From: Natribaculum luteum
GTDB lineage: Archaea; Halobacteriota; Halobacteria; Halobacteriales; Natrialbaceae
Length of the DNA stretch: 64,000 bases
Direction of reading: 5' to 3'
Assembly (NCBI RefSeq): GCF_023008545.1
Contig: NZ_CP095397.1
Location: 372,001 to 436,000 of the forward strand
In this document: positions 21,514-37,792 of the stretch, piece by piece
Layout: every line of letters starts with the position of its first letter
Numbering within the stretch: the first letter of the stretch is position 1
Program-made: the position numbers and the translations under genes
The notes under the pieces: model-generated
The model's input: the letters and a program-made list of their open reading frames with translations, nothing else
What the model was told of the DNA's origin: nothing
Database searches by the model: none

Positions 21514-22371
21514 ATGGGTACGCGAACCGGTTCGACAGAACTGCTTCAACAGCTGGATCTGAAGGAGTACGAGGCGACGGCGCTCGCCCACCTGCTGAGT
21601 GCCGGCCGGACGACCGCCCCGGACATCTCGGAAGCGACTGGTATCCCCAATGCACGAGTGTATGGCGTTCTCGATTCGTTGGCCGACTACGGATTCATCA
21701 AGGTGATCCCTGGCCGGCCAAAGCAGTACCAGCCAAAGTCGCCGGAAGAGATTCTCGAGCGAGCAAAGGAGAACCGACGACAGCAGTACGAGGATTACTG
21801 CAACGACGTAGACAGGTTGCAAGAGGAGTTCCTCGACGAGTTTCGCCCGCTGTACAACCAGGCGGACGAAGACGTGACGCCGACCGCCGAACTGTTTCAC
21901 GTGGTCGACGTCGGCGATCCGAGCGAGACGGAGACCCGACAACTCTACCAGAACGCGTCGGAAGAAGTCTACGTCATCACCAACAGCTTCGCGTACTTCG
22001 ACGACGTCGAATCGGCCGTGAACGCCGCGCTCGATCGAGGTATCGACGTCTCGGTGCTGTTTCTCGATCCCAGAAAGCTTCCGGAGGAGAAGGCGGCGGT
22101 GCAGGTCGACATCGTCGACGAAATCGCATCCGAGTACCCCGCGATCGACTACCGATTCAGCGAAGCGGTGCTGCCCTGGCGCGGAACGTTCATCGATCCG
22201 AGCATGAACTACGACTCTGGTAAGGCGATCTTCCTCGTCGAGGAAACCGACGTTCCCGACCACAAGCGGCAGGCGGCGATCACGGAGAACGGATCGTTCG
22301 TCGCCGGTATGAAGCGGTACTTCGATCTGATCTGGCGCTACGAGAGCCTCGAGCCTCAGCCGTCGGTCTGA
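21514..22371 (+). CDS. TrmB-family transcriptional regulator
   Basis: This 285-residue protein has an N-terminal winged helix (about residues 8-75: LDLKEYEATALAHLLSAGRTTAPDISEATGIPNARVYGVLDSLADYGFIKVIPGRPKQY). A coiled segment (ILERAKENRRQQYEDYCNDVDRLQEEFLDEF) and a C-terminal phospholipase-D-like/TrmB effector domain (about 130-280) follow. TrmB proteins sense sugars and repress or activate metabolic genes. It lies 76 bases after the three-SDR operon and in the same direction. A TrmB-type operator is found at that operon's start, so local control is likely. The ligand may be a sugar intermediate of the glycan pathway. Confidence 0.85.
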   Translation: MGTRTGSTELLQQLDLKEYEATALAHLLSAGRTTAPDISEATGIPNARVYGVLDSLADYGFIKVIPGRPKQYQPKSPEEILERAKENRRQQYEDYCNDVDRLQEEFLDEFRPLYNQADEDVTPTAELFHVVDVGDPSETETRQLYQNASEEVYVITNSFAYFDDVESAVNAALDRGIDVSVLFLDPRKLPEEKAAVQVDIVDEIASEYPAIDYRFSEAVLPWRGTFIDPSMNYDSGKAIFLVEETDVPDHKRQAAITENGSFVAGMKRYFDLIWRYESLEPQPSV

Positions 22372-22560
22372 TTCGCTCGTTTGACTCGTCCGGCGATCGC
22401 TCCCCGGACAAGCAGCAAACCTCACGTGACAGAGGTGTTGAATTATGAGTTACTCAGTGGTCAAGGCTAGTGATAGAAATTGTAGAACAACAGCACAATA
22501 TCTACACCGTTCGATCACTGGATGGATTTGACAGTTGATTAATCGCTGAAGACGAACTGT
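22372..22560. other. Intergenic spacer between convergent trmB-like and flippase genes
   Basis: This 189-base spacer marks the point where composition drops to A+T-rich. It contains a small palindrome TGAGTTACTCA (22446-22456) that resembles a compressed version of the TrmB-type half-sites but lacks the full spacing. No gene is seen. Confidence 0.35.
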
Positions 22561-24099
22561 TCACTGGTCGATGAAATGGCCTGCGATACGTTTTACGGGA
22601 CCAAGATTTACGCCGAACCTCTCTTCGAAACTCAGTACGAGCATGACCTCTTCCTCCTCGATGCCACCCAAAGCGAGAATCGCAACGCCATAGACGGTGA
22701 TAAAAACCACGGCTATTCCTAACAGGACCGGCCCCGTCACGGTAAGAACTCGAGTAACAATAACATACATTCCGAGCATGGAGAACACTCCAACAGTAGC
22801 AGGTTTGAACAGCGCAGCTGTCGCCGGATGAATTCCTGTAGCCCGGTAGAGTTGTACAGAATAGAGTGTATTTAGGCCTATGTAAGACACCGCAGTAGCC
22901 ACGGCTGCACCCATAAGCCCATATTCGGGAATAAGAACAACATTGAGGACGATATTCGTTCCACCAGCGAGCAGGTTATCCCACATTATCGTTCTCGTTC
23001 GTCCGATGGCAGTGAGGGTGTTCACGTTTGGTCCGGCCACTGCGTGGGTGAAGAACCCGACTGCGAGCACCACAAGTGGCAATGCCGCCTCGGTATACTC
23101 GGGTCCGAATGTCAGACTGATCGTGGCTGCTGGGAACAGTATCATGATGAGTCCTGCCGGAAGTGTTGCCATGAAGATCCACTTGGTGACGATTTTGTAA
23201 GTTCGATCCATCTCGTTGGTTCTCCTCTCAGAGTGGAGTTCCGACAGAATCGGCATGGCGATAAAGCTGAACGCCGACAGCGTCGCCGTCAACAGTTCTG
23301 CGAGAGGATAGACGACATTGTAACTCCCGACTTCACTAGAGGTTCGAAAATAACTTAGAATGAAGATGTCAAAGTACGAAAGGACCATAATCATCGACGC
23401 TGTGAGCATCAGCGGTGCAGAAAAGGTCAGCAGTTCGCGACGTCGCGTTCGTGAAGACACCGACGATCTAATGTTCGTCCGCGTCAGGACGTAGTAGAGG
23501 CCAGCCAAGCCTGCAACAGCGAACGTTGCCGCGTAGGCACCGACGATCCCCAATGCGCCGAGACTGAAGTACAGCGCGAGGACAACTAGCCCAAATCGAA
23601 CGATCGGCTGGCCGATATTCCTGATAAGTACCTTTGGGAGTGACCGCTGGTGACCCTGGATTACGCCGATAGACAGTTTCATCAGGGCGGCAAATGGGAC
23701 GCCGATAGCCGCAACTCGGAGTACACTCGTCGCCTCTGGTGCACCGAGAACGTGTGTTGCGACGAGATCAGCAAAGACAAACAACACAGCAGCGACGCTA
23801 ACAGAGATTGCCAATACGATCTGCATTCCCGACTCGATGACACCCTTGCGATCCGCCGGATCGTCAAACCGCGGAAGATACCGACCGATGCCTGTGTTCA
23901 TCCCAAAAAGAAGGATTGTAGATGCGAACGATAGTGTCGTGATTCCGATAGTCGCGACGCCATACGTTGGAGGGCCTAACAGTCTGGCCATCAGTACCTT
24001 CGCGAGGAAGGAAATTCCGAGCTCGAGTACGAGGCCAACAAACAATAGAACGCCGCTTTTGAACAATCGGCGAATGATCGAGTTCTGATCTTCGGGCAT
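22561..24099 (-). CDS. Lipid-linked oligosaccharide flippase candidate (MATE/Wzx type)
   Basis: This 512-residue integral membrane protein has about 12-14 hydrophobic segments and the polysaccharide-export signature at the N terminus (SGVLLFVGLVLELGISFLAKVLMARLLGPPTYGV). It would move dolichol-linked glycan from the inner to the outer face of the membrane before AglB transfers it. AglR-type proteins fill this role in Haloferax. A+T content is higher than in the SDR operon, as for the genes to its right, which suggests a separately acquired cassette. Family assignment is good; substrate is inferred from context. Confidence 0.85.
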   Translation of the reverse strand: MPEDQNSIIRRLFKSGVLLFVGLVLELGISFLAKVLMARLLGPPTYGVATIGITTLSFASTILLFGMNTGIGRYLPRFDDPADRKGVIESGMQIVLAISVSVAAVLFVFADLVATHVLGAPEATSVLRVAAIGVPFAALMKLSIGVIQGHQRSLPKVLIRNIGQPIVRFGLVVLALYFSLGALGIVGAYAATFAVAGLAGLYYVLTRTNIRSSVSSRTRRRELLTFSAPLMLTASMIMVLSYFDIFILSYFRTSSEVGSYNVVYPLAELLTATLSAFSFIAMPILSELHSERRTNEMDRTYKIVTKWIFMATLPAGLIMILFPAATISLTFGPEYTEAALPLVVLAVGFFTHAVAGPNVNTLTAIGRTRTIMWDNLLAGGTNIVLNVVLIPEYGLMGAAVATAVSYIGLNTLYSVQLYRATGIHPATAALFKPATVGVFSMLGMYVIVTRVLTVTGPVLLGIAVVFITVYGVAILALGGIEEEEVMLVLSFEERFGVNLGPVKRIAGHFIDQ

Positions 24100-24187
24100 G
24101 ATATCGGGAGACAGGGTTTCAAATAGCCAGATTTACCAAATTAAACGGTGACCCCAAGTAAGGGCCTTTTTGTTTAGTCGACTGTAT

Positions 24188-25108
24188 TCAATCGGCATAA
24201 CCGAGGCTGCGGAGTTGTTCCTTGACGTCGGCGGTAACCCGCCGATCACTGTCGACCGTAGACTCGCCGTCAACAACAGCCCATGGGACCTCACGCAGAA
24301 TTGGGTGGTGGATTCCGGGTGGATGACCGTAGAGACCCATCGGCAGAAGCGGCATTTGCTCACCGAGCATATTCCCGTGATCGGAGGTTATCACGGTACG
24401 GCCGGGCTGATCGAGCAGTGGTTCAATCGCATCCATGACCCGACGAAGGTTGTCAGCATACGCATCCCAGACGTCGTCGGGATTCTCGTACCCGAGCCCC
24501 ACCGCCTCCCAGATGTCGGTCGCACCCGGTTTGGCATTCTTAACAGTTACTTCTTCAGTACCATTGAATTCTGCATACCGAAGGTGTGGCGCTTCAATGA
24601 ATGGGTAATGCGGCTGGAGGTAGTGAACGATGAGACGCTTCTCTGGGAACTGCTCACGGGCAGCGAGTGCTGTTTCCGTCACCGGTTCAGGTGGCACCGT
24701 CCCGATTTCAGGATCAAACTCTTCTCGCCACGGTTCGAGGAAATGGTGAAATGCCGTCTCGACTTGCCGAGAGACAACAGGATTACCGGTGACGTACACG
24801 CAGTCCGTCTGCGCTGGTCCGCTAAAGTTCGCTCGTACCCACTCATTCGTGGCGCTTCCGGCGCTATACACACGTTCGTAGCTATCGTACGTCTCCGTCT
24901 CGACAACCTCCTCAAATAGGTCTGCACGACAAGCGTCGAGAACCAGTAACGTATCCCACTCCCGATCAAGTACCCTAATTCCGTCAGAATTGTGGAGCTG
25001 AGCCTGTATCGGAGCAATAATTCGATTTGCAGTCCGATTTTGCCACCAGGTCCGCCGATCATAGTTTGCCGCGATCTCATCAACGGCGTACCGCAACTTC
25101 CCTAACAT
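24188..25108 (-). CDS. Alkaline-phosphatase/sulfatase-fold protein
   Basis: This 306-residue protein has the metal-binding landmarks of the alkaline phosphatase superfamily: WDTLLVLDACRADLFEE near residue 50, and TVITSDHGNMLGE near 240 with a conserved DHG. Between these lies YSAGSATNEWVRANF in place of the nucleophile region; no CxPxR formylglycine motif is seen. A true sulfatase activity is therefore doubtful, and a phospho- or other group transferase acting on glycans is equally possible. There is no signal peptide, so it acts in the cytoplasm. It follows the flippase upstream in the same direction. Confidence 0.7.
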   Translation of the reverse strand: MLGKLRYAVDEIAANYDRRTWWQNRTANRIIAPIQAQLHNSDGIRVLDREWDTLLVLDACRADLFEEVVETETYDSYERVYSAGSATNEWVRANFSGPAQTDCVYVTGNPVVSRQVETAFHHFLEPWREEFDPEIGTVPPEPVTETALAAREQFPEKRLIVHYLQPHYPFIEAPHLRYAEFNGTEEVTVKNAKPGATDIWEAVGLGYENPDDVWDAYADNLRRVMDAIEPLLDQPGRTVITSDHGNMLGEQMPLLPMGLYGHPPGIHHPILREVPWAVVDGESTVDSDRRVTADVKEQLRSLGYAD

Positions 25109-25203
25109 CGGGGGTATAATCGTGATTCCGCGACCGCGAATAAGTCGCTTTCGATGGGTTCAAGTCCCAGATAGGATTCATTCCATCATAAGAGGTCAGT
25201 GAC
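25109..25203. other. Divergent spacer with a tRNA T-arm-like sequence
   Basis: The spacer contains GGGTTCAAGTCCC (25156-25168), which has the shape of a tRNA T-stem and loop. No matching acceptor, D or anticodon arms were found upstream, so it is at most a tRNA remnant. It sits at the edge of the most A+T-rich gene of the locus. Confidence 0.3.
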
Positions 25204-26205
25204 GTGCCACGAGTGCTTTTGCTACACACTAACCGAGAATATGCCGAGACGCTCGCCGATGCTGTCACTGAAAGTGACACCGACTTTGAACCTCTTGTCG
25301 TTAGCCGCCAGCCATTGCTTGATCGCCTAAAAACGCTTTTGACTGCGGATATTGATTTAATTCAGGCAGACGAACTAATGGTTAATGGAATGCTTGCAGC
25401 CGGCGCATCGCTTGTACGGCAGATTCCTTTAGTTGTTAGCATTCGCGGGTGGGCAGATTACACGAATGCCCACAATCAATACGGCTCTCTACGAGAGAGA
25501 TCTATCGAACTTCGATCCAAGGCTACCTTGCAACGTACCAAATCTACACTGTTCATTAGCGAAATAACTGAGCAAGCCTTCAAGAAACGATATAATGTTT
25601 GTGATGCAACAATTGTCGGCCGTCCTATCGACATTGAGGCATACGCTGATGGGACTCAAAGGGGACGAAATACGTTCGATGTTCTAACGGTCACAAATCT
25701 TCGATACAAAGAGAAATACAAAGGAGTTGTAATGACGTTACAGGCAATGGAACCGTTGTTTGAGGAGTACCCCTCACTTCGGTTTCGTATTGCAGGTAGC
25801 GGTCCTTATCTTGAAAAGTTAAAAAAATTCCTCCAAACATATAATTATTCAAACCGCATCAGTTTGCTTGGGTTCGTTGACGCAATTGCTGACGAGTATG
25901 CGAGTGCAGACCTATTTGTTTATGTTAGCTTTCTTGACTCGTATGCAACAGTAATTTTAGAAGCACAGGCTGCTGGTCTCCCAGTTATCGGTAGTGATGC
26001 TGTCGGCATCCCTGAGACAGTAGGTAATGGTGGGATGCTCTGTGACCCCACTGTTGAGGGTATACAAGCAGCACTTGAGCACGTAATCTCCGACGACGAT
26101 CTCCGATATGATCTTGAAAGGCGCGCCCAGCAAAAGATCGCAACCCACAATGCAGAATCTGCTGCCGCCCATATTGACGTCTGGGAGCGCGTCCTCACAA
26201 ACTGA
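25204..26205 (+). CDS. Glycosyltransferase family 4
   Basis: This 333-residue GT-B fold protein starts at GTG (MPRVLLLHTNREYAETLADAV). The C-terminal donor domain is typical: VLTVTNLRYKEKYKGVVMTLQAM, RFRIAGSGPYLEKLKKFL, and the E-x7-E nucleotide-binding motif EAQAAGLPVIGSDAVGIPE. Base composition is clearly lower in G+C and codon use is different from the rest of the window, with many third-position A or T. This points to recent transfer. It is the only rightward gene among leftward ones here. It probably adds one sugar of the N-glycan; the sugar is unknown. Confidence 0.85.
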   Translation: MPRVLLLHTNREYAETLADAVTESDTDFEPLVVSRQPLLDRLKTLLTADIDLIQADELMVNGMLAAGASLVRQIPLVVSIRGWADYTNAHNQYGSLRERSIELRSKATLQRTKSTLFISEITEQAFKKRYNVCDATIVGRPIDIEAYADGTQRGRNTFDVLTVTNLRYKEKYKGVVMTLQAMEPLFEEYPSLRFRIAGSGPYLEKLKKFLQTYNYSNRISLLGFVDAIADEYASADLFVYVSFLDSYATVILEAQAAGLPVIGSDAVGIPETVGNGGMLCDPTVEGIQAALEHVISDDDLRYDLERRAQQKIATHNAESAAAHIDVWERVLTN

Positions 26206-26237
26206 CTGCCGATTACCTAGTCAAGCACTCGGCAGAC

Positions 26238-27578
26238 TCATTCCTGATATCCTAGATCTCTGAGCCGCTGCCGGACCTCTTCGTCCATCTCGGCACTGAT
26301 TGACTCGCTTCCCACGGAGTTGGCGTGGTTTTCAATCTTATCACGGAACGTCGAGAGAGTGCCAGGATACTCTTCAGCGACGTTCGTCGTTTCTTCCGGA
26401 TCAGATGTCAGATCGAACAGTCTCTCCTCACCGCCCTCCATCTGGACATATTTCCATTCATTCGTTCGAAGAGCAAACCGCCGATCACCTTCATCGTAGT
26501 CCGCCCACTCGGCAATAACCTGCTCCCGATCGTGCTCATGTCCAGACACCAAACTCTCGCCGAGGAATGTGTCGGGTTCAGACGCATCGGCATAGTCGAC
26601 AAGTGTTGGTGCGAGATCGAGTAACCCAACCAGATCATCGACTGTTCCTGACGACTCGCCGTCATGCAGAATGAGGGGAACGTGTAAAACTTCGTCATAG
26701 AATGTCGCCGCATGGCTGAACTGCCCGTGGTCAAGGAACTCTTCGCCGTGATCGGCTGTAAACGCGATGACTGGATCTGTCTCCCACGTGTCTTGAAGCC
26801 CCTTCAGCAAGCGATCAACCTCTGCGTCAACGAATGCAATCTCGGCGTCGTACAGATCGAGAAGTGTGTTTAGTTCGTCGTCGGTGATTCGATCCGGATC
26901 CTCGAGCATCTTCCGGCGCAGACGAATGGCCGTCTCGTTGTCAACTGGGTCGTCCCGGAACTGTCGCTGGTAGCGGGCAGGAGGTGTGTACGGGTGGTGA
27001 ACGTCCATGTAGTGTACCCACAGAAAGCGCGGACCGTCGTCTGCTTTCCGCGCCCACTCCAAGGCCATGTCAGTCATTTCATCGGCCGGAACGTATGCAG
27101 AGCCGAGTTCGACGCCAGTGCGGCGCTCAGTTGCGTTAAACGCCTTTTGTAGAACGTTATAGACAACCCCGTTCTGGTCAAGGTGCGTCTTGACCGCTTG
27201 GCGAGCACGAGCGAGAGGGGACGGATCGGATTTCGAATCGTAGAACTGGTCGAACCCGCGGTCGTAGCCGAAATCCGCGGAGAGATAGAGATTCGAGTGA
27301 AAGCCGGCAGTCTGGTATCCAGCATTCCTGATAGCCTCCGCAAGTGTCGTCCGTTTAGATGAGAGCCGTTCGAACCCCCCATACATCAGTGCGTATGAGG
27401 AGGTGAGAATAGAGGGAAATGATGGGCGAGTTGAGCAGGCATGCGCAAACACGTTCGTAAACCGTCGTCCATCGGTCGCTAAGTCATCTATCACCGGAGT
27501 CGTGTCCCGATCGTAGCCGTAACACCCGACGTGGTCGGCCCGAAGTGAATCAACAGTCACGAGGACGATATCTCGCAT
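26238..27578 (-). CDS. Sulfatase-family protein
   Basis: This protein of about 446 residues (from MRDIVLVTVDSLRADHVGCYGY; an ATG four codons earlier is possible) belongs to the sulfatase branch of the alkaline phosphatase superfamily. VTVDSLRADH supplies the first metal ligands. HACSTRPSFPSILTS stands where the CxPxR nucleophile motif is expected, and FTADHGEEFLDHGQF holds the later DHG and His. The Cys is one position closer to the Arg than in classical formylglycine sulfatases and the Pro is missing, so maturation is uncertain. Two such proteins in one glycosylation cluster suggest trimming or transfer of acidic groups. Confidence 0.8.
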   Translation of the reverse strand: MRDIVLVTVDSLRADHVGCYGYDRDTTPVIDDLATDGRRFTNVFAHACSTRPSFPSILTSSYALMYGGFERLSSKRTTLAEAIRNAGYQTAGFHSNLYLSADFGYDRGFDQFYDSKSDPSPLARARQAVKTHLDQNGVVYNVLQKAFNATERRTGVELGSAYVPADEMTDMALEWARKADDGPRFLWVHYMDVHHPYTPPARYQRQFRDDPVDNETAIRLRRKMLEDPDRITDDELNTLLDLYDAEIAFVDAEVDRLLKGLQDTWETDPVIAFTADHGEEFLDHGQFSHAATFYDEVLHVPLILHDGESSGTVDDLVGLLDLAPTLVDYADASEPDTFLGESLVSGHEHDREQVIAEWADYDEGDRRFALRTNEWKYVQMEGGEERLFDLTSDPEETTNVAEEYPGTLSTFRDKIENHANSVGSESISAEMDEEVRQRLRDLGYQE

Positions 27579-27635
27579 GTGATCATCCAACGGGATTACC
27601 TACAAGATGCTTTCGAGATGGACACGTTACACCTG

Positions 27636-28622
27636 CTACAGACTCCGAAGGACATTCGAATATTCACCGGCAATCCGTTCCCAACTGTACTCCGCAGCCA
27701 GTTTCTGGAGGCTATCGATTGTAGTTTCAGAGACATCGTTCGCTCGTTCGATGGCGGCAGCAATCGATGCAGACTCAGCCTCGCAGAACTCGACAGTACC
27801 GTCGAACTTCTTTTCAGCTCGGCCAGACAGTTGTACCGTCGGGAGGCGTGCAGCACCGTATTCCAGGACCTTTAGTGTATGTGGGTCATCGACGAGGCTA
27901 ACCCCAACATCGGCAGCGTGGAGGTACCCCGGCACATGTTCGTGTGGAACAGTCCCCAAATAGATAATCCTATCCGAATTTGCAGCAGCGTCAGTGACGG
28001 TCGGTTCGAGTGAACCCGAACCAAGCACAACCAATGACCAGTCATCAAGATAGTATATACTTTCGACTAGTTCTCGGATATGATAGATCGGCTCGAGACC
28101 ACCAACATAGATGACGACGTTCTTTCGAAGATCGAACTTTTCGAGGCGATCACTGGCAATATCGAGTATCCGAGCGTCAGGATCGGCGAACCGGTTATAC
28201 TCGACACCGAGGTCGGACTTAGTGGCTGTCGTTGCGTGACGCTGAACCCGCGTCTTTTCTTCAGAATACACATACAACGTGTGGGCCGATTTCCGGAATG
28301 CGAGGTTTTCGAGATGGCGAACGGACTGCGCTATTGGCCACACGCTAGTCTCCTCCAACTGGCGGATCGGGTCAACGTGGTCTACAACTAGCGGCAATCC
28401 CGTAACCGTAGACACGACTAGTCCGACAATAGCGCCAGCACGTGTCGTCCCGATGATTGCATCATATTCGTCATCGGAAGCGAAAATCTCTCGAATTATC
28501 CACGGTCTTCCGGCTCGAAGATCGACGTTGAACCCGTTCTCTTCAAGGTGGGATGCGATACGCGCTCTCCCAACGCTGATATTCTCAGGTTTGTTCGGTG
28601 TAAGCCAAAGTACCCGTGTCAT
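27636..28622 (-). CDS. Glycosyltransferase family 4 (second)
   Basis: This 328-residue GT-B glycosyltransferase begins MTRVLWLTPNKPENISVGRARIASHLE. The acceptor domain is followed by VVIYVGGLEPIYHIRELVESI, SLVVLGSGSLEPTVT and LHAADVGVSLVDDPHTLKVLEYGAARLPTV, the last covering the donor-binding E-rich motif. Only nine bases separate it from the downstream end of the neighbouring GT2 gene, so the two and the sulfatase gene (45-60 bases away) form a leftward operon. It likely extends the dolichol-linked glycan at the cytoplasmic face. Sugar specificity is unknown. Confidence 0.85.
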   Translation of the reverse strand: MTRVLWLTPNKPENISVGRARIASHLEENGFNVDLRAGRPWIIREIFASDDEYDAIIGTTRAGAIVGLVVSTVTGLPLVVDHVDPIRQLEETSVWPIAQSVRHLENLAFRKSAHTLYVYSEEKTRVQRHATTATKSDLGVEYNRFADPDARILDIASDRLEKFDLRKNVVIYVGGLEPIYHIRELVESIYYLDDWSLVVLGSGSLEPTVTDAAANSDRIIYLGTVPHEHVPGYLHAADVGVSLVDDPHTLKVLEYGAARLPTVQLSGRAEKKFDGTVEFCEAESASIAAAIERANDVSETTIDSLQKLAAEYSWERIAGEYSNVLRSL

Positions 28623-28631
28623 GGTTGACGA

Positions 28632-29552
28632 TCACCGCCACTTGGTCATCCCATAGAGATATCCAAACCCAACAGTCGTCGTAAAGACGAACAACATCAC
28701 GAACTGCACGGCCTTCTCGAGGGAAGGAGCGGTAAAAAGCTGTTTCACGCGCGACGGGACGAACTCTCGAAAGAGTTGACCGAGGAAGTCGTACTCCTCG
28801 CCGGTCGATTCGGGAACTAGCACTTCCATCCCGCGCTTCGAGTACCCCTGCCAGAAGGCACGGTCGAGCAACCACAGCGGTTCGGTCCGGTAGTCGAACA
28901 CCTTGTGGGCGACCTCCGCCTCGGGTTCGTAGTAGACGCCCTGACCGTACCTGCTGCGGAGGCGGGCACACAGTTCTGTCTCGCCGCCCTGGAGATTTTC
29001 GTCGCCCTGGCGGCCGCCGATGTTGGTATCGAACCCGTCCAGCTCGAGGAAGACGTCCTGCCGGAAGGAGATGTTCGAGCCGAACGTGTTGCGGACCTCG
29101 CCCCGACCGTCGGCGAACCCGCGCTGGGTGACGCCGATCAGGAAGTAAAACTCCTCGGGGAGAAACGTCGGTCTCCCGGCCACCCACTCTGGAACCATCT
29201 TCCCGCCGGCGGCCAGCGCGCCCTCTCGCTCGTACGTCTCGACGAGTGTGGCGACCCACTCAGGATCGGCTACGGCGTCGTCATCGATGAACGCGACTAC
29301 GTCGCCCGTCGCCGCTTTTGCTCCATTGTTTCGACTCTCGAGCAGTCCGACGTTGTCCTCGTTGCAGTGGATCAAAACCTCCTCGCGGTCGCCGTACTCC
29401 TCGTGAAAGCGCTCGCAGACCGCCTCGTTTCCGTCGGCGACGAGCACGAGTTCGACGTCGTCGTACGTCTGCTCGAGGACGCTTTCGGCGGCGTCCTGCA
29501 GGTCATCGTACCGGTCCAGCGTATGCTCACAGACGACGACCGAGACGCGCAT
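28632..29552 (-). CDS. AglG/AglI-like glycosyltransferase family 2
   Basis: This GT2 enzyme of 306 residues starts MRVSVVVCEHTLDRYDDLQDAAESVL, chosen because haloarchaeal AglG/AglI proteins begin in this way; an ATG 11 codons earlier is possible. The GT-A motifs are VLVADGNEAV and VAFIDDDAVADPEWV (the Asp cluster for metal and nucleotide), and GGETELCARLR. A single C-terminal membrane segment (AVQFVMLFVFTTTVGFGYLYG) anchors it. In Haloferax, AglG and AglI add hexuronic acids as second and third sugars. The same position is likely here. It is first in the leftward operon and divergent from aglB. Confidence 0.85.
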   Translation of the reverse strand: MRVSVVVCEHTLDRYDDLQDAAESVLEQTYDDVELVLVADGNEAVCERFHEEYGDREEVLIHCNEDNVGLLESRNNGAKAATGDVVAFIDDDAVADPEWVATLVETYEREGALAAGGKMVPEWVAGRPTFLPEEFYFLIGVTQRGFADGRGEVRNTFGSNISFRQDVFLELDGFDTNIGGRQGDENLQGGETELCARLRSRYGQGVYYEPEAEVAHKVFDYRTEPLWLLDRAFWQGYSKRGMEVLVPESTGEEYDFLGQLFREFVPSRVKQLFTAPSLEKAVQFVMLFVFTTTVGFGYLYGMTKWR

Positions 29553-29889
29553 GCGCAGTGGTCGGAAACCGAGAGAGTTAGTCATTTCGAGATTGGATCG
29601 ACGATCATTGGCCGGAAGAGGCGGACACCACGCCAAAGTACGGCACGCAAGCGCTCGTCGCCGGGTGACGTTCGACCGCCTGCTCCGGTGTCGTGTCGAC
29701 GCCGGCCGATGCGGTGTAGTTTATGCCTGAAGACGTATTCTCTCCCAGCCATGGCGATTCGTGCCCACCACGGACGATTCGGGGGAGGTGGATCAGACCT
29801 CCTGCTCGAGCGGGCAATCTCGAGCGAAATATGAAAGCGCCGCGAATAGATGACAAGGCTTATTCTTCGGTTGGGATTGATGGAACCTA
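29553..29889. promoter_or_regulatory. Divergent intergenic region between the AglG-like gene and aglB
   Basis: The 337-base spacer contains no convincing gene. Near aglB an A+T-rich stretch (about 29855-29868, GGCTTATTCTTCGG) may be its TATA region, 25-30 bases before the ATG. The leftward promoter is not clear. Confidence 0.4.
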
Positions 29890-32820
29890 ATGAGTACCGA
29901 CACTGAACACGTCGAGGAGGACACCGAAACGCCCTTCCTCGAGACGTGGAGAGAGTGGTATCACGTCCCGGTTATCGGGGTCGTGGTACTGTTCATGTTC
30001 CTCGCGCGAATCAGGTCGTACGATCGGTTCGTTACCGAGGACGGCACTCCCGCCCTGGCCGCAGTCGACTCGTGGTATCACTGGCGAACGATACAGTGGA
30101 CGGCCAAAAACTATCCCGGAACGATGCCCTACGACGTGTGGACCGGCTTTCCCACCGGTCACTACGTCGGTCAGTTCGGCACGCTGTTCGACCAGCTAAT
30201 CGTGACGGCCGCGATGATCGTCGGACTCGGCAGTCCCTCCACCGAGACGCTCTACACGGTCGCACTGCTCTCCGTGCCCGCGATGGCAGCGCTGGTCGCG
30301 ATTCCCGTGTTCTACATGGGCCGGCGACTCGGCGGCACGGTCGGCGGACTCGTCTCGATCGTCGTGCTCGCACTCGCGCCCGGCACGTTCTTCTACCGGT
30401 CGATGGTCGGCCAGCTCGATCACCACACCGCCGAAGTGCTGTTCATGGCAATTGCCATGCTGGCGATGATGGTCGCACTCCGCGTCGCAGAACGGGAGAA
30501 GCCGATTTACGAACTGGTCGTCGATGGAGACTGGGACGCCCTCCGCGAGCCAGCGATCTACAGCGTCCTCGCCGGACTCGCGCTCTCGCTGTACATCTGG
30601 GTGTGGCCGTCGGCCATCCTGCTGATCGGCATCTTCGCCGTCTTCTTCGCCGTGCAACTCTGTCTCGACTACGTCCGTGGCGTCTCCCCCGATCACGTCG
30701 CGTTCGTCGGTGCCGTCAGCATGGGGACGACGACCGTCGTCACCACGCTACTCATCGAAGACGGCGGAGCAGGCCTCAACGTCTCGAGTTTCGGCTACCT
30801 CCAGCCGCTCGCAGCCCTGCTGGTCGCGGCCGGCGTCGTCTTCATGGCCTGGCTCGCCCGTCAGTGGAACGACCGCGGTCTCGAGCGGCGCTACTATCCC
30901 GTGGCGATCGGCGGGATCATCGCCGCCGTGTTGGTCGTGATGATGCTCGCGCTTCCCAACCTCTACGATACGTTCGTCGGGAACCTCACCGGGCGGTTGC
31001 TCCCGCTCGACCCGAGTACGGGTGCGCTCACCGTTCGCGAAGCCCATCCACCGGGGAACTTCACCGCACACGTCTTCGACGAGTTCGGAGCCGCGTTCTA
31101 CACGATGCTCGCCGGACTCGGATTCCTCATCGCACGGCCGTTCCTCGGCCGCGAGTATCGCGCGGAGTACACGCTGATCGTCGTCTGGTCGCTGTTTCTG
31201 ATCAGCATGTCGATGACGCAGACTCGCTTCGCATACTATCTCGTGCTCGCGGTCGCGGTCGTCAACGCGGTCTTCGTCGCGGACGTCGTCCGACTGTTCG
31301 ACCTCTCGGGGACGGTCCAGTCGCTCCAGGACGTCGAGACCTACCAGGTCATCGTCTTCGTTCTCGTGATCGTGCTCCTGTTTGCACCGCTTTTGCCGCC
31401 GATGGCTGCCGCCGGCAGCACCGCGTGGGATCGCGGCGAGCAGAGCCAGCCCAGCAGCGACGCGATGATCTGGGAGGACTCGAACCACTGGCTCGCGGAG
31501 AACACGCCCGAACCCGGCAACTACGGCGGTGCGGGTAACGAGTCCGAACTCGAGTACTACGGCACCTACGACTACCCCGAAGACGGTGACTACGACTACC
31601 CCGAGGGCGCCTACGGCGTGATGTCGTGGTGGGACTACGGCCACCTCATCACGGTCCAAGGCGAGCGGATCCCCCACGCGAACCCGTTCCAGCAGAACGC
31701 GCGGTCGGCCTCGGCGTATCTCACCGCGGAGTCCGAAGAGCGCGCCGAGTTGATCCTCGAGGCGATCGCGGCCGGCGAACCGGTGGCCGACCGATCAACC
31801 GAGGAGTTGCGCGACGCCGTCGAGAACGCAGACGAGAGTCACGAACAGCAACGGTACGTGATGATCGACTACGCGACGGCAGGCGGGAAGTTCAGCGCGA
31901 TCACGGCGTGGTCCGGGCCGGGCTACGGCCACTACGTGACGCCCGCGGATTACCAGTCCGGTGAGTCGATTCCGGTCGAGGAGATCGGCGAGCGGTTCGG
32001 GAATCTGCCGTACGACAATACGACCACGTCCCGGCTGTACTTCGACGACGCCGCCGGAATGGAACACTACCGGCTCGTCCACGAGAACGACGCATTCACG
32101 CCGACGTACATCAGTTACGCGATCACCCGGAACGGGCAGGTCGCCACGAACGAGAACGGTCAGCCTGCGGTCGCGATCAACCGTCGAGTCACCCAGCAGG
32201 TCCAGCTCGAACTCCAGCAGCTCCAGAGCAATCCCAACCTCGACGTGCAGGTCTTCGACCAGCGCCAGGCCGCCGCGGTGAAGACGTTCGAACGGGTCGA
32301 GGGCGCGACGCTCACCGGCTCGCTCGACGACCAGAGCGTGATCGACGACGAGAACGCGGCGGTCTACGCGCAGGTCGAACTCGAGACGGGCACCAACCGG
32401 ACGTTCGTCTACACCCAGCAGGCCGAACTGGCCGACGACGGCAGTTTCGAGGTGACGGTGCCGTACGCGACCGACGACGAACTCGGGCCGGACGACGGCT
32501 ACACGGACAGCAGCGTCGAGGCGGTCGGCGACTACGCGGTCTTCGTCGGCACGCCCGACAACGGCACCATCCAGCAACACTACGCCGGCGAGACCGCCGT
32601 TCCCGAAACGGCGGTCGTCGACGGCGATACCGTCGACGTGACCCTCGAGCAGACCGACGAGGTCGTCGACGATCCCGACGCCAACGAGACGACAGACGAC
32701 GGCAACGAGACCAGCGAAGGTGACGGTGACTCCGCGGCGAACGAGACGGAGACGAACGAGACCGACGCCGGGAACGTCTCGAGTTCGCTCGAGCCCGTCG
32801 CGGCTCGAACGGCACGCTGA
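29890..32820 (+). CDS. aglB: Dolichyl-phosphooligosaccharide--protein oligosaccharyltransferase
   Basis: AglB moves the finished glycan from its dolichol carrier to Asn in N-x-S/T sequons outside the cell. The 976-residue protein has a multi-spanning N-terminal half and an extracellular C-terminal half. The first loop carries AAVDSWYHWR with the catalytic Asp, a later loop has LTVREAHPPGNF, and the signature WWDYG is at residues 580-584. An unusual tail of about 50 residues rich in Asp, Glu and Thr holds five sequons (Asn 932, 939, 951, 956, 962). It ends the locus that begins with aglJ. Confidence 0.97.
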   Translation: MSTDTEHVEEDTETPFLETWREWYHVPVIGVVVLFMFLARIRSYDRFVTEDGTPALAAVDSWYHWRTIQWTAKNYPGTMPYDVWTGFPTGHYVGQFGTLFDQLIVTAAMIVGLGSPSTETLYTVALLSVPAMAALVAIPVFYMGRRLGGTVGGLVSIVVLALAPGTFFYRSMVGQLDHHTAEVLFMAIAMLAMMVALRVAEREKPIYELVVDGDWDALREPAIYSVLAGLALSLYIWVWPSAILLIGIFAVFFAVQLCLDYVRGVSPDHVAFVGAVSMGTTTVVTTLLIEDGGAGLNVSSFGYLQPLAALLVAAGVVFMAWLARQWNDRGLERRYYPVAIGGIIAAVLVVMMLALPNLYDTFVGNLTGRLLPLDPSTGALTVREAHPPGNFTAHVFDEFGAAFYTMLAGLGFLIARPFLGREYRAEYTLIVVWSLFLISMSMTQTRFAYYLVLAVAVVNAVFVADVVRLFDLSGTVQSLQDVETYQVIVFVLVIVLLFAPLLPPMAAAGSTAWDRGEQSQPSSDAMIWEDSNHWLAENTPEPGNYGGAGNESELEYYGTYDYPEDGDYDYPEGAYGVMSWWDYGHLITVQGERIPHANPFQQNARSASAYLTAESEERAELILEAIAAGEPVADRSTEELRDAVENADESHEQQRYVMIDYATAGGKFSAITAWSGPGYGHYVTPADYQSGESIPVEEIGERFGNLPYDNTTTSRLYFDDAAGMEHYRLVHENDAFTPTYISYAITRNGQVATNENGQPAVAINRRVTQQVQLELQQLQSNPNLDVQVFDQRQAAAVKTFERVEGATLTGSLDDQSVIDDENAAVYAQVELETGTNRTFVYTQQAELADDGSFEVTVPYATDDELGPDDGYTDSSVEAVGDYAVFVGTPDNGTIQQHYAGETAVPETAVVDGDTVDVTLEQTDEVVDDPDANETTDDGNETSEGDGDSAANETETNETDAGNVSSSLEPVAARTAR

Positions 32821-32982
32821 CGTCGACCGTCACCGCTCTTTTCGGTCGGACGGCGGCGACGTTCGATCGACCCTATCGCATTCGCCCGTTCGTCGCGATC
32901 GAACCGATACGCCTACGCCGCCGCCAAACGGCCGCCGGGAGAGTGAGAACGCTTTTAGGACCACCCGGAATATCCACGGGCG

Positions 32983-33921
32983 ATGCGAGAACTTCTCGTC
33001 GTCTATCTCAAGGGCTTCTCGATGGGTGCTGCGGACGTCGTCCCGGGCGTCTCCGGGGCGACGATCGCGCTCATCGTCGGGATCTACGACCGGCTGATCC
33101 GGGCGATCACCGCGATCGACCCACGGGAGTTACGCTCGGGGGTTCGTATCTACGATTCCGACGAACGACGGGCGTTCCTGGCCACACTCGAGCGAATGGA
33201 CGTCGTCTTCCTCGTGGCGCTCGGATTGGGGATCCTCTCGGCGGTCGTCGCCCTCTCGGGGCTCATGCACGTCGCGGTGACGACGTACCCGGTCCCGACG
33301 TACGCGTTCTTCTTCGGATTGATCGCTGCGTCGGCGGTCGTCCTCTACGACCAGCTGGACGTCTGGACGCTTCGCCGAGTCGCAGTCTCGATCGCCGGGA
33401 TCGTGATCGCAGCAATCGTTACCGGTGCGACGGAGACCGGGGCGAGCCACGGGCCGGTCATGATCTTCCTCGCGGGTGTGGTCGCGATCTGCGCGATGAT
33501 CCTGCCCGGCGTCTCCGGGGCGTTCTTCCTGCTGATACTCGGCCAGTACGAGTACATGACCGGCGTGTTGAGCGAGTTCGTCGACGGGCTGGTCGCGCTC
33601 CTCGACGGCCAGTCGCTCGCGCCGGTGGTCGAGACGGGAACCGTCGTCGCGATCTTCTGCGTCGGCGCGGCTATCGGCCTGTTCACGATGGCCCACGTCG
33701 TCCGACGCGCGCTCCAGGCGTACCGCGGGGCGACGCTCGCGTTCCTCGTGAGTCTGATGGTCGGCGCGCTTCGCCTGCCACTCGAGGAGGTGGTCGCGAA
33801 CCTCGGCGAGACGGCGGTCGGCTCGCCGGTCGTCGCACTCCTCACCGCCATCGTCGGCTGTGCTGCCGTCCTCCTCGTCGATCGGTACACGACCGACCTC
33901 GAGTACGCGAACGACCGCTAA
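32983..33921 (+). CDS. DUF368 membrane protein, candidate polyprenyl-phosphate translocase
   Basis: This 312-residue protein with about eight hydrophobic segments has the duplicated DUF368 motif: GFSMGAADVVPGVSGATIALIVGIY at residue ~11 and MILPGVSGAFFLLILGQYEYM at ~172. Bacterial DUF368 proteins (PopT) have been shown to return undecaprenyl phosphate across the membrane. After AglB releases the glycan, dolichyl phosphate or pyrophosphate remains outside, so a flipping role for this protein in archaea is a natural inference. It has its own TATA-like box (CGCTTTTAGG, about 32949-32958) and lies 162 bases after aglB on the same strand. Confidence 0.85.
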   Translation: MRELLVVYLKGFSMGAADVVPGVSGATIALIVGIYDRLIRAITAIDPRELRSGVRIYDSDERRAFLATLERMDVVFLVALGLGILSAVVALSGLMHVAVTTYPVPTYAFFFGLIAASAVVLYDQLDVWTLRRVAVSIAGIVIAAIVTGATETGASHGPVMIFLAGVVAICAMILPGVSGAFFLLILGQYEYMTGVLSEFVDGLVALLDGQSLAPVVETGTVVAIFCVGAAIGLFTMAHVVRRALQAYRGATLAFLVSLMVGALRLPLEEVVANLGETAVGSPVVALLTAIVGCAAVLLVDRYTTDLEYANDR

Positions 33922-33984: not shown

Positions 33985-34020
33985 AATTTATCTGTAACAT
34001 TTAGATAAATTTATTGTTTT
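33985..34020 (+). promoter_or_regulatory. Operator-like inverted repeat and TATA box before the 44-residue peptide gene
   Basis: AATTTATCT (33985-33993) and AGATAAATT (34003-34011) form a perfect 9-base inverted repeat with nine bases between, so the half-sites are about two helical turns apart (18 bases centre to centre). It runs directly into the TATA-like TTTATTGTTTTT (34010-34021), placed about 28 bases before the ATG at 34043. A dimeric regulator is expected. Confidence 0.6.
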
Positions 34021-34042: not shown

Positions 34043-34177
34043 ATGTTCGTGAAAGACGACGCGAAAGATTACCTCGCATCGCACCCCCGAATGATCGGCG
34101 CACTGTTTACGGTGCTGTTGCTGCTGAGTCAGGCCGGTTCGGTCGTCGCAGGCAGCTCTTCGCAGGTCGGCCCTTAA
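34043..34177 (+). CDS. 44-residue hydrophobic peptide with signal-like segment
   Basis: The translation is MFVKDDAKDYLASHPRM followed by IGALFTVLLLLSQAGSVVAG and ending SSSQVGP. A charged N-terminus, one hydrophobic segment (about residues 17-36) and an A-x-A-like SVVAG site suggest either a membrane microprotein or a precursor from which a short SSSQVGP-type peptide is released. I have the impression that short haloarchaeal peptides of this plan recur, but I cannot name a family. Strong support comes from the well-placed promoter with an inverted repeat and from the clean start and stop. It converges on the CHAT protease gene. Confidence 0.65.
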   Translation: MFVKDDAKDYLASHPRMIGALFTVLLLLSQAGSVVAGSSSQVGP

Positions 34178-34234
34178 AACAAGTAATTATATATCGATCC
34201 TAGTAGGTTATTCCACCAATAAATAGAGACGTCG

Positions 34235-36316
34235 TTAGTCAATTGTAACTGCACCAACGCCATTATTCCAATATATACGATTATCAAGTATTATTGGTAT
34301 TTCCGTCCAAATGAGGTATTCCTGGAGTGATTCCTCCGAGACGCAATAGAAGGGAGTGCGGTTCGGTGTAATGTGTCGATCAGTTATTGTCTCCAAAGTT
34401 GATTCAGTTGCAGTACCAATTTTGAAGCCTTTCGTCGGATAAGATCGAACTGCAAAATCGAATTTGTCGTCTTCGCGTCGCTCAAGTTCGACGAGCAATG
34501 GCGCGCCACCTTCCGACTGTGCAATGTCGGTCGATCCGTCGCCGACGATGAGATACTCCTCGCCGAGTGCCGACTGTTCCCGTGCGATCTCGAGTGCCGC
34601 CCGGAGCGGGAATCCGAGGTTCAACAGTCGGGCCATCGTTTCGCCGATCTCGACGGCCTGCTCGTTGACGACGTCGCGTAGGGTGCTTACGCCGCCAAAC
34701 GCGCCCCGCTTGACGAGTGCGAGTCCCTGTTCGTAAGACTGGCAGGCGTTGAGGAAGAACACGCCGACGTCGACGGACTCGAGCGTGCGAACGTCGAGGT
34801 CGCCGTCGGAACACCGAAGTCCGTCGGGTGTCGCGTGTCCGATGTAGTGTAAGAAGTCGTAGCCGCCGTCTGTCAGCAACTCTGCGAGGCGGTCCGTGGT
34901 GATGCCGAACTCCGAGTGGACGTCGAACGGGAGTGACTCCCGCTTGCCGTAGGCGTCGTCGAGGAGGTCGTGCTCGCCGAGCATGCGGGCGTCGTTGCAG
35001 ACGAGCAGGATTTCGATCGACTCGCTGCGCGAGTCTCGAGACAGCTGGTTCTGGTAGGCTTCGATCGTCGCCTTCGACGCGCTCTGTGGGACGTGGTCGC
35101 CGAACCAGGCGTGTTCGATCGACTCGTCGGCGACGTCGGGGACGACGAACGCTCGCTCGTCGTCGGAGGGGGCAATTGAAGGGCTGCGACGTGCGCTGGC
35201 GGAGCGGACGAAGCTAGCCCCGGGATTCGTGACGTTCGAAACCGCGTCGAGAGACGATCCTCGCGGCTCGCGAACGACGCCGAGTTCGTTGACGACGAAC
35301 GGGAGCAGTTCGACGCTGTCTGGCTCTGCAGGGACGTGAGCAGTCAGCGGCCAGCGTGGAACGTACTCCTCGATAGACTCGAGAGGTACCTCGAGGTACG
35401 ACTCGAGTTGTTCGGGCAGCGACGCGGCGTACGTCTCCGCGAGGTCGAACGGCAGGGCATCCTCGAGGACGGCCCGCTCGTGGAGGTCGTACTGGAACAG
35501 GCCTTCCGTGCGGACGAGGCAGTCGAGGAAGAAAAACCGCTTGAGCAGGCCGGCGACGACGTCCTCGAGTCGGTCGTCGCCTGCGAGCGGGTACTCGAAC
35601 TGTGGCGTCTCGAGCGTCGGTTCGACGCCGGGGCGGACGTCGGCGCCAAGGTAGAACGCGAGCGGGGCGACCTGGAACACCGACTGATACGCCGGCGGAA
35701 CCCGGATCGTGACGTCGGCGTCGGGACGCTCGACGGCGTCCGGAGCCTCGAATTCGTCTCCGAGTTCGATCAGCGGCGGGTGGCCGCGAAGCGTCGGCCA
35801 GGTTCGCTCGGGCGTCGTCGTCTTGAGTGCAGACGAGAGGACGGCGATGGCCTCCATCATCGCCTCGGGGTCGGCGGGCGTCGTGATCGTGCCGACGGGT
35901 CGTTCGTGCAGCGATCGGGCACCGAGTTCGATCGGGACGACGTCGTCGAACGAGAGGCGAATCGAGTTGAGACCAACCTCGATCGTGCCCGTCGCCTCGA
36001 CCCGGCAGTAGAGTCGGATCGGGCCGCTCAGGCCGACGAACTGCGTTCCGTCCTCGAGTCGAGCCGTCTCGCCGACGTCGAGGTTCGCCTCGGTTCGGCC
36101 GGCATCGTTGTGGAGACTAACCGAATACGTCTGGTCGAACACGAGCGCGCCGGTCTCGACGGTACAGGTCGTGTCGACGGGGAAGCAAAATCGCTCCCCG
36201 TCGCCCGTTCGGGGAGCTACCGGCGTCGACGTTCGAACGTGCAGGTGGCGCTGCTCGATCGAGTCGTACACCTCGAGACCAGTCGGATCGGTCGTCCCTT
36301 CGAACTCGATTGCCAT
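34235..36316 (-). CDS. CHAT-domain protease-like protein
   Basis: This 693-residue protein has a C-terminal CHAT (caspase-like) domain from about residue 430. His494 in YDFLHYIGHATPDGL and Cys525 in VGVFFLNACQSYEQGL form the expected catalytic dyad. GAFGGVSTLRDVVNEQAVEIGETMARLL follows, as in active members. The N-terminal ~400 residues are acidic and beta-rich, without a recognisable domain, and probably form a sensor or substrate-binding part. There is no signal peptide. CHAT proteases often act with partner proteins that they cleave. The only small neighbour is the peptide gene at 34043. Confidence 0.85.
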   Translation of the reverse strand: MAIEFEGTTDPTGLEVYDSIEQRHLHVRTSTPVAPRTGDGERFCFPVDTTCTVETGALVFDQTYSVSLHNDAGRTEANLDVGETARLEDGTQFVGLSGPIRLYCRVEATGTIEVGLNSIRLSFDDVVPIELGARSLHERPVGTITTPADPEAMMEAIAVLSSALKTTTPERTWPTLRGHPPLIELGDEFEAPDAVERPDADVTIRVPPAYQSVFQVAPLAFYLGADVRPGVEPTLETPQFEYPLAGDDRLEDVVAGLLKRFFFLDCLVRTEGLFQYDLHERAVLEDALPFDLAETYAASLPEQLESYLEVPLESIEEYVPRWPLTAHVPAEPDSVELLPFVVNELGVVREPRGSSLDAVSNVTNPGASFVRSASARRSPSIAPSDDERAFVVPDVADESIEHAWFGDHVPQSASKATIEAYQNQLSRDSRSESIEILLVCNDARMLGEHDLLDDAYGKRESLPFDVHSEFGITTDRLAELLTDGGYDFLHYIGHATPDGLRCSDGDLDVRTLESVDVGVFFLNACQSYEQGLALVKRGAFGGVSTLRDVVNEQAVEIGETMARLLNLGFPLRAALEIAREQSALGEEYLIVGDGSTDIAQSEGGAPLLVELERREDDKFDFAVRSYPTKGFKIGTATESTLETITDRHITPNRTPFYCVSEESLQEYLIWTEIPIILDNRIYWNNGVGAVTID

Positions 36317-36397: not shown

Positions 36398-37792
36398 TTA
36401 GTGCTCCGTCCGGTCGTCCGTGAGGAGCGTCGCCTCGAGGACCTCGAGTGGGTGTCTGATCTCGTAGCCGGTCCCGTGTTCCATCTGCATTGCGCAGGTG
36501 GGACACTCGGTGAGGCCCGTCTCTGCGTCGGCCTGTTCCATGTGCTCGAACATCTCCTCGCCGATCTTCATCGAGGTCTCGTAGTGTTCGCTCTTCCAGC
36601 CGTAGGTACCCGAGATGCCAGAACAGGAGTCGCCGACGTCGTGGGCTTCGACACCGTCGATCGCGTCGATGACCTCGAGAGCCTGGCCGTCGAGTCCCTG
36701 GTTGCGCGCGTGACAGGGCGCGTGGTAGGCGAGGTCGGGGCCGTCGACGCCGTCGGTCTCGGCGAGTTCGCCCTCGAGGTCCTCGTGGATTCGCAGGTAC
36801 TCGACGGCGTCGTAGGTGTTCGTCGCGACCGTCTCGGTTCCCTCGAAGTCGAACAGTTCGGGGTACTCCTGGCGCAGCGCCATCGAACAGGAGGTACACG
36901 AACAGACGACGTCGTATCCCTCCTCGACGAGTTCGCGGAACGTCTCGACGTTGAACTGTGCGGCCCGGCGGGCGTCGGAGAGCATTCCGTTTGCGAACAT
37001 CGGCGTGCCCGAACAGCGCTGGTCGGGAACGACGACCTCGTACCCGAACTGTTCGAACACCCGGACCAGCGCCTTCCCGACGTCGGGTGTGTTGTAGTTC
37101 GCGTAGTCGCCGTGGAAGTAGGCGACACGTTTCTCGTCGGTCGCGGCGTCCTCGCCCCGTTCCGCTTGCGCGGTTCGCGCGCGCTCTCTCGAGGCAGCGG
37201 CGCCGCCCCGGTCTCGCCACCACTCGCGGAAGGTTTCGGTCGCGAACGCCGGGAACGCTCGCTCGCTCGTGATCCCCAGCACGCGCTCGTTGAACCACGT
37301 CGTCACCGACAGGCCCGCGACGAAGTTCGTCAGCCGGGGAACCGCGCTCGCGAAGCGAGCCAGTCGTCCGTAGTTCGACAGCAGTCGATTGCGGAGATAC
37401 TCCCGCGAGAACGCGCTCATCTGCTCGTCGACGTACTCCCCCCGTGCCGTGTTGTGCATCTGCGAGAGTGGCACCTCCGAGGGGCAGGCGTGGTCACAGC
37501 GCATGCAGTTCGAGCACTTCATCACCGACGGATCGACGTCGTGGTCGTCCCGCCGCTTGAGTCGCCACTGCTCTGGCCCCTGGAACTTCGGTCCGGGAAA
37601 CTCGTCGTCGACCTCGGCGACCGGACAGTTGGTGTCGCAGGTCGAGCACTTGTAGCAGTCGTCCGCCCCCGGTCGCAGGTCCATCTCCTCGGCCTCCGGG
37701 AACACCTGGATCGGCTCGAACGTCTCCTCTGCTGTCGCGTGATCGTCTGTCGTCGACTGAACCTCGTCTGTCTGTCGTTGGGAATCGCTCAT
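36398..37792 (-). CDS. glpC: Anaerobic-type glycerol-3-phosphate dehydrogenase subunit C
   Basis: GlpC passes electrons from the GlpAB dehydrogenase to the quinone pool. The 464-residue protein has two 4Fe-4S clusters near the N terminus (CYKCSTCDTNCP and CSNCMRCDHACP). Two Cys-rich CCG domains follow (GDYANYNTPDVG...RCSGTPMF, CSCTSCSMAL, YHAPCHARNQG, DSCSGISGTYGWKSEHYE, ECPTCAMQMEHGTG). An acidic 40-residue leader precedes the first cluster. The start overlaps the glpB stop (ATGA). In haloarchaea this enzyme works under aerobic conditions with glycerol as an abundant carbon source. Confidence 0.95.
   Translation of the reverse strand: MSDSQRQTDEVQSTTDDHATAEETFEPIQVFPEAEEMDLRPGADDCYKCSTCDTNCPVAEVDDEFPGPKFQGPEQWRLKRRDDHDVDPSVMKCSNCMRCDHACPSEVPLSQMHNTARGEYVDEQMSAFSREYLRNRLLSNYGRLARFASAVPRLTNFVAGLSVTTWFNERVLGITSERAFPAFATETFREWWRDRGGAAASRERARTAQAERGEDAATDEKRVAYFHGDYANYNTPDVGKALVRVFEQFGYEVVVPDQRCSGTPMFANGMLSDARRAAQFNVETFRELVEEGYDVVCSCTSCSMALRQEYPELFDFEGTETVATNTYDAVEYLRIHEDLEGELAETDGVDGPDLAYHAPCHARNQGLDGQALEVIDAIDGVEAHDVGDSCSGISGTYGWKSEHYETSMKIGEEMFEHMEQADAETGLTECPTCAMQMEHGTGYEIRHPLEVLEATLLTDDRTEH

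Follow-up and report, generated by a model that had tools for sequence, protein, structure and literature searches.

Two convergent genes of Natribaculum luteum, located in a 64,000-nucleotide stretch of DNA that was analyzed as a whole (the window), are read here as a dedicated protease-partner module of haloarchaea, the partner being recognized mainly via its free C-terminal Gly-Pro; a probability of about 45% was assigned to this reading. The first gene (34043-34177, forward strand) encodes a 44-aa peptide of the DUF7503 family (PF24335), and the second (34235-36316, reverse strand) encodes a 693-aa protein with the predicted fold of a CHAT cysteine protease, belonging to subfamily 1 of two CHAT subfamilies. 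The stop codons are separated by 57 nt (34178-34234). Both ORFs had been claimed, in convergent order, in a sequence-only reading of this DNA and were found where it had placed them; a genome search showed that each gene is single-copy in N. luteum. The same reading had seen nothing else nearby, which holds only loosely: an aglB-type oligosaccharyltransferase gene (archaeosortase-associated subfamily) followed by a polyprenyl-phosphate-translocase-like gene lies to the left (29890-33921), and glpC (36398-37792, reverse strand like CHAT) stops 81 nt short of the CHAT start codon, which would allow the CHAT gene to be transcribed from the glp operon at this locus. Of 99 loci, 16 have an aglB-like ORF in the vicinity of the pair. 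The G+C content is ca. 0.50-0.58 across about 8 kb of the window (22000-30000) and mostly 0.60-0.70 in the remainder.

The two genes occur together across the haloarchaea. DUF7503 was detected in 337 of 391 haloarchaeal genomes (334 over the cut-off) and the CHAT protein in 365 of the 391 at an E-value of 1e-5; in all 61 best-match loci, both genes were present and convergent. Linkage was quantified in a panel of 80 genomes, one per haloarchaeal genus, with five further genera left out and genus g80 outside the listings. This panel yielded 106 DUF7503 matches, 101 of them within 3 kb of a listed CHAT gene and 100 of these convergent with it (two of the 100 scored below the cut-off). Among the remaining six matches, those in G006 and G176 proved convergent at closer look (L172, L173), and three were below the cut-off; in G049, the DUF7503 gene is found 1.4 kb from the CHAT gene on the same strand. 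Counting only matches over the cut-off, 100 of 101 DUF7503 genes are tail to tail with a CHAT gene, and such genes occur in 69 of the 73 CHAT-containing genomes but in none of the seven that lack CHAT (Fisher p = 1e-7). This co-occurrence and the conserved tail-to-tail linkage strongly support the proposal that the CHAT protein has the peptide as its dedicated partner, and the independent distribution that the sequence-only reading had named as evidence to the contrary was looked for and not found. The data suggest an old, near-core protease with its partner.

The identity matrices of the peptides and CHAT proteins had a correlation of 0.47, a value reached by none of 1000 permutations and expected for co-inherited genes. 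Covariation between the two proteins was analyzed by mutual information with APC (114 pairs, effective depth 39), and the top scores did not rise above a null shuffled within clusters. Outside the class, CHAT relatives were found in four genomes of one other family (L195-L198) among 294 genomes of the phylum; no convergent Gly-Pro-ended (GP-ended) ORF of at least 25 aa was found near them, L195 having only 562 nt beyond the gene and a poor alignment there.

The 693-aa protein had no significant match in Pfam or NCBIfam, including the Pfam CHAT family (PF12770). Weak PF12770 matches were obtained for 11 of 58 relatives, and one relative (G196) exceeded the cut-off (24.7 vs. 24 bits); the haloarchaeal CHATs are too divergent for the Pfam model, except for this member just above the threshold. 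A model predicted from 58 aligned sequences had a mean pLDDT of 84.6 and matched 8tl0 in Foldseek (E = 7e-8). In this predicted model, the caspase-like region (residues 320-600; 34517-35359, reverse strand) was aligned to gingipain, separase and Craspase structures; SAVED-CHAT gave a VIA Z score of 18.1 (169 residues, 2.2 Å), and the Z scores of gingipain R, separase and the Craspase TPR-CHAT were 17.5, 16.7 and 13.6, respectively. As judged from the model, the protein is a divergent CHAT, a putative cysteine protease of the caspase/separase fold. The His494/Cys525 pair that had been called intact in the earlier reading was confirmed (codons at 34835-34837 and 34742-34744, reverse strand) and is conserved in the family: 126 of 131 subfamily-1 and 34 of 36 subfamily-2 proteins retain all of His490, His494, Asn523, Cys525 and Ser527. 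The fold of residues 320-600 and the His-Cys dyad are shared with SAVED-CHAT, TPR-CHAT (Csx29), separase and gingipain R. In contrast to these, the N. luteum CHAT protein has an N-terminal part without a confident relative and a convergent small peptide as partner. When folded alone, the N-terminal part (residues 1-140; 35897-36316, reverse strand) was predicted to be beta-sandwich-like, with a best Z score of 8.4 and no Foldseek match at E ≤ 0.001. The protein is probably cytosolic, since its sequence has no evident hydrophobic leader. Its nearest named relative is from another haloarchaeon, Natribaculum breve (89% identical). At one locus (L171:3636-8046), two tandem CHAT genes, both lacking the His-Cys dyad, were observed beside an intact GP-ended DUF7503 peptide.

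The N. luteum peptide is a member of DUF7503, a family without an assigned function, and scores well above the gathering cut-off (74.1 vs. 27 bits, E = 6.2e-21). It features a short charged N-terminus, a conserved HPRM...LLLSQAG hydrophobic helix and an uncharged tail ending in SSSQVGP-stop. Across DUF7503, basic residues on the N-terminal side average 2.15 and acidic ones 2.24, and 106 of 123 peptides have a tail without charges; membrane topology is thus not settled by the charges. Arginine or lysine follows the proline that precedes the helix in 110 of 116 peptides in a column table whose input was required beforehand to end in Gly-Pro, with the [HN]P motif preferred. The peptide gene is real and coding: codon differences in the helix fall mostly on the third position (0.53, compared to 0.29 and 0.22 for the first and second), and an A+T-rich, TATA-like block spanning positions -38 to -27 relative to the start codon is conserved in 112 upstream regions. 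In N. luteum, a TATA-like box (tttagataaatttatt; 34000-34015, forward strand) is located at -43 to -28 before the ATG. The gene tables of three RefSeq-derived plasmid records, which are incomplete, list no CDS of the DUF7503 kind beside CHAT.

What stays constant in the partner is the C-terminal Gly-Pro, encoded in N. luteum at 34169-34177 (forward strand, with the stop codon). This end was found in 121 of 124 distinct DUF7503 peptides, a proportion that leans upward because the DUF7503-type model used includes Gly-Pro columns; GP-less and diverged cases were found by position, not by the model. A convergent ORF of 25-160 aa with a Gly-Pro end within 700 nt was present beside 124 of 147 distinct CHATs and 26 of 1245 control large ORFs (loci L082-L194), the 147 being best-match loci plus hand-picked, apparently unpaired ones rather than a random sample, with duplicates removed by the last 300 residues. 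Under slightly wider criteria, a GP partner was found for 116 of 131 subfamily-1 CHATs and 19 of 33 haloarchaeal subfamily-2 CHATs, and none was found for the other 14 of the 33. Several seemingly unpaired CHATs face diverged, GP-ended small ORFs (L116, ending TTTTPGP; L165, ending DTIGP; L186, L188, L189, L190 and L192), and at Halococcus-type loci (L147, L151 and L162) the GP-ended ORF overlaps the end of the CHAT gene. All four Gly codons, all four Pro codons and all three stop codons are used at the Gly-Pro ends; this variation indicates that selection acts on the amino acids. Peptides without the GP end were found at L079 and L135 (ID), L133 (GT), L167 (GI) and L174 (IS).

The second CHAT subfamily is characterized by the motif LNACGS, and its members often face a soluble peptide with the C-terminal sequence AKR[VI]STYGGP or a near variant (L177, L178, L179, L181, L193, L194, L199, L200 and L201). 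The description of the partner as hydrophobic does not hold throughout, since several subfamily-2 CHATs face soluble GP-ended peptides. Compared to the DUF7503 model, the partners collected here include sequences beyond its reach and soluble ones sharing only the C-terminal Gly-Pro. On a tree of 160 CHATs, parsimony required at least 14 changes of GP state. In a comparison that left out the non-haloarchaeal L195-L198, L214, and the broken CHAT frames L113 and L119, nine of ten CHATs without Glu280 were also without a GP peptide; in subfamily 2, Glu280 and Tyr296 were each changed in 7 of 14 proteins without and 0 of 19 with a GP partner. The mapping of a Gly-Pro docking site to these two residues was not adopted: other positions relax too and the lineages are related, and the pattern is a weak lead only. 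The search for a replacement small gene beside GP-less CHATs gave no candidate; the blastp matches listed resemble reading frames antisense to conserved, larger genes downstream.

In the mechanism proposed for this module, the small convergent gene would encode the cognate partner of the CHAT protease, which would bind it mainly by the free C-terminal Gly-Pro. The remaining part of the peptide would set its location, usually by means of a conserved membrane helix and sometimes with a soluble body. Most likely, the partner would be a tethered substrate or gate that holds the protease; upon a signal, it would be cleaved, possible positions being behind the conserved basic residue that precedes the helix (HPR/HPK) and, in a soluble partner, ahead of the tail (AKR before VSTYGGP). 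We infer direct tail binding, cleavage, the signal and the outcome. Tail recognition is suggested by the predicted CHAT fold taken together with a partner kept class-wide and a constant free Gly-Pro end, and a location-setting body is suggested by the helix in most partners and the soluble body in part of subfamily 2. Since arginine is the residue after which separase and gingipain R cleave (the PDB title of the gingipain R entry reads Arg specific), the basic residue before the helix and the AKR sequence are candidate cut sites. There is a reported precedent for a CHAT protease that finds its sole substrate by docking and not by cut-site sequence (PMC11106740). Several points count against the mechanism, in addition to the covariation result and the changes of GP state on the CHAT tree. 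If the helix were N-in/C-out, the tail would be outside and the protease inside; at L171, a GP peptide is kept beside dyad-less CHATs; and GP ends have been lost in some peptides, along with the 14 of 33 subfamily-2 CHATs lacking a GP partner.

The best-surviving alternative, although an unlikely one, is a cell-death or defence unit in which the peptide is a membrane-active effector released or restrained by the CHAT protein. A small hydrophobic peptide does adjoin a caspase-like protease, and other CHAT proteases act in defence, as described in two reports (PMC9729208; PMC11106740). The breadth of the family (DUF7503 over the cut-off in 334 of the 391 genomes) and the stable chromosomal surroundings of some of the loci speak against this alternative, and soluble subfamily-2 partners could not form pores in the same way. 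PADLOC (2023 library) gave no model match for the peptide, the window CHAT or one subfamily-2 CHAT, and the protease was found neither in 50,697 phage records nor in a viral contig scan; relatives were found on 25 plasmid records. The wide distribution, the stable neighbours and the lack of matches in these virus and PADLOC searches argue against a typical or minimal defence unit, and the "minimal defence or cell-death unit" of the sequence-only reading gained no support. A cell-death or stress role of the pair is possible.

The recurring neighbours of some pairs fit a signalling role: among 99 loci, 19 carry a DUF7504 gene upstream of CHAT and 15 carry a REC-HalX gene upstream of the peptide gene. 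Given these frequencies, neither was accepted as a third obligatory gene. At L070, L074, L146 and others, DUF7504 upstream of CHAT and REC-HalX upstream of the peptide are followed, in our reading, by a TrmB-like gene, an arrangement that suggests a larger module in Haloferax and relatives. A protein of ca. 140 aa recurs about 260-370 nt past the CHAT stop codon on the CHAT strand (L065, L066, L068, L134, L144, L157 and L161; the cluster covers 8 of 99 loci).

Less probable still is a secreted peptide signal, in which the hydrophobic part would be a signal sequence, the GP tail (SSSQVGP, VSTYGGP) a messenger and the CHAT protein the processing enzyme. The layout of the peptide is indeed like that of a signal peptide (charged start, hydrophobic core, small residues, short tail), and basic residues precede the tail in the soluble type. 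However, the helix is conserved residue by residue, which ordinary signal sequences are not, whereas only the final two residues of the tails are constant. Further, the soluble precursors have no evident export signal, and the most frequent neighbours include no recurring transporter.

Control in cis, whereby the convergent transcripts would regulate one another through their overlapping 3' ends without any need for contact between the proteins, was regarded as improbable. The convergent order is kept almost everywhere, and of 135 pairs, the stop codons abut or overlap in 40 and are separated by 1-10 nt in 24, by 11-130 nt in 65 and by more in 6. Some type I toxin-antitoxin pairs have overlapping convergent transcripts that regulate each other, and the convergent order of the present genes fits that kind of system; however, in two cases the peptide is intact although its gene lies at a distance from CHAT. 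At L091, the two genes are 4.5 kb apart with ordinary-looking genes between them, and in G160 a single DUF7503 gene is ca. 32 kb from a subfamily-1 CHAT (L175, L176). Both peptides are intact and GP-ended, which favours a protein partnership that can work in trans; antisense control leaves these distant peptides, as well as a Gly-Pro end with free codons, unexplained. Equally doubtful is a nascent-chain device, in which Gly-Pro-stop slows release, the ribosome waits while the helix inserts and the stalled complex is the signal: inefficient release on C-terminal proline and glycine is reported for bacteria (PMC7246954), and the free codon choice with fixed amino acids fits, but archaeal release differs from the bacterial process and the convergent next gene leaves no close same-strand downstream gene to regulate.

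The protease-partner reading has counterparts among known systems. In Craspase, TPR-CHAT and Csx30 likewise constitute a CHAT protease with one dedicated protein partner, and the substrate is reported to be chosen by docking (PMC11106740); unlike Csx30, the haloarchaeal partner is a very small peptide whose defining feature is its two C-terminal residues. Separase, a protease of the same fold, is held by its dedicated partner securin (PMC9729208), and securin-like inhibition by the haloarchaeal peptide is a possibility. DUF7503 and CHAT are known kinds. A literature search of limited reach retrieved no paper on DUF7503, on the peptide motifs HPRMIG or STYGGP, or on a CHAT domain together with haloarchaea or Halobacteria; as far as this literature extends, the conserved pairing, its Gly-Pro signature and the existence of a second subfamily that faces soluble peptides are new.

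A broader and more tentative view, considered rather unlikely as a whole, is that of a near-core, tail-gated system in which caspase-fold proteases are set by GP-recognized small partners whose bodies are swapped between membrane and soluble forms, and which is a candidate for the unassigned caspase-like activity of Haloferax volcanii. A 2012 paper described a dominant caspase-like activity in that organism and stated that clear homologues are missing from archaeal genomes (PMC3615174). If the view is correct, the CHAT protein would be a gene-level candidate for this activity, which lacks an assigned gene. It would be a candidate only, because the activity was assayed with caspase substrates and the closest fold relatives cut after other residues. 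A C-terminal Gly-Pro would also be a new recognition rule for a caspase-fold protease, and a Pfam family without a known function, present in 337 of 391 haloarchaeal genomes, would gain both a function and a partner.
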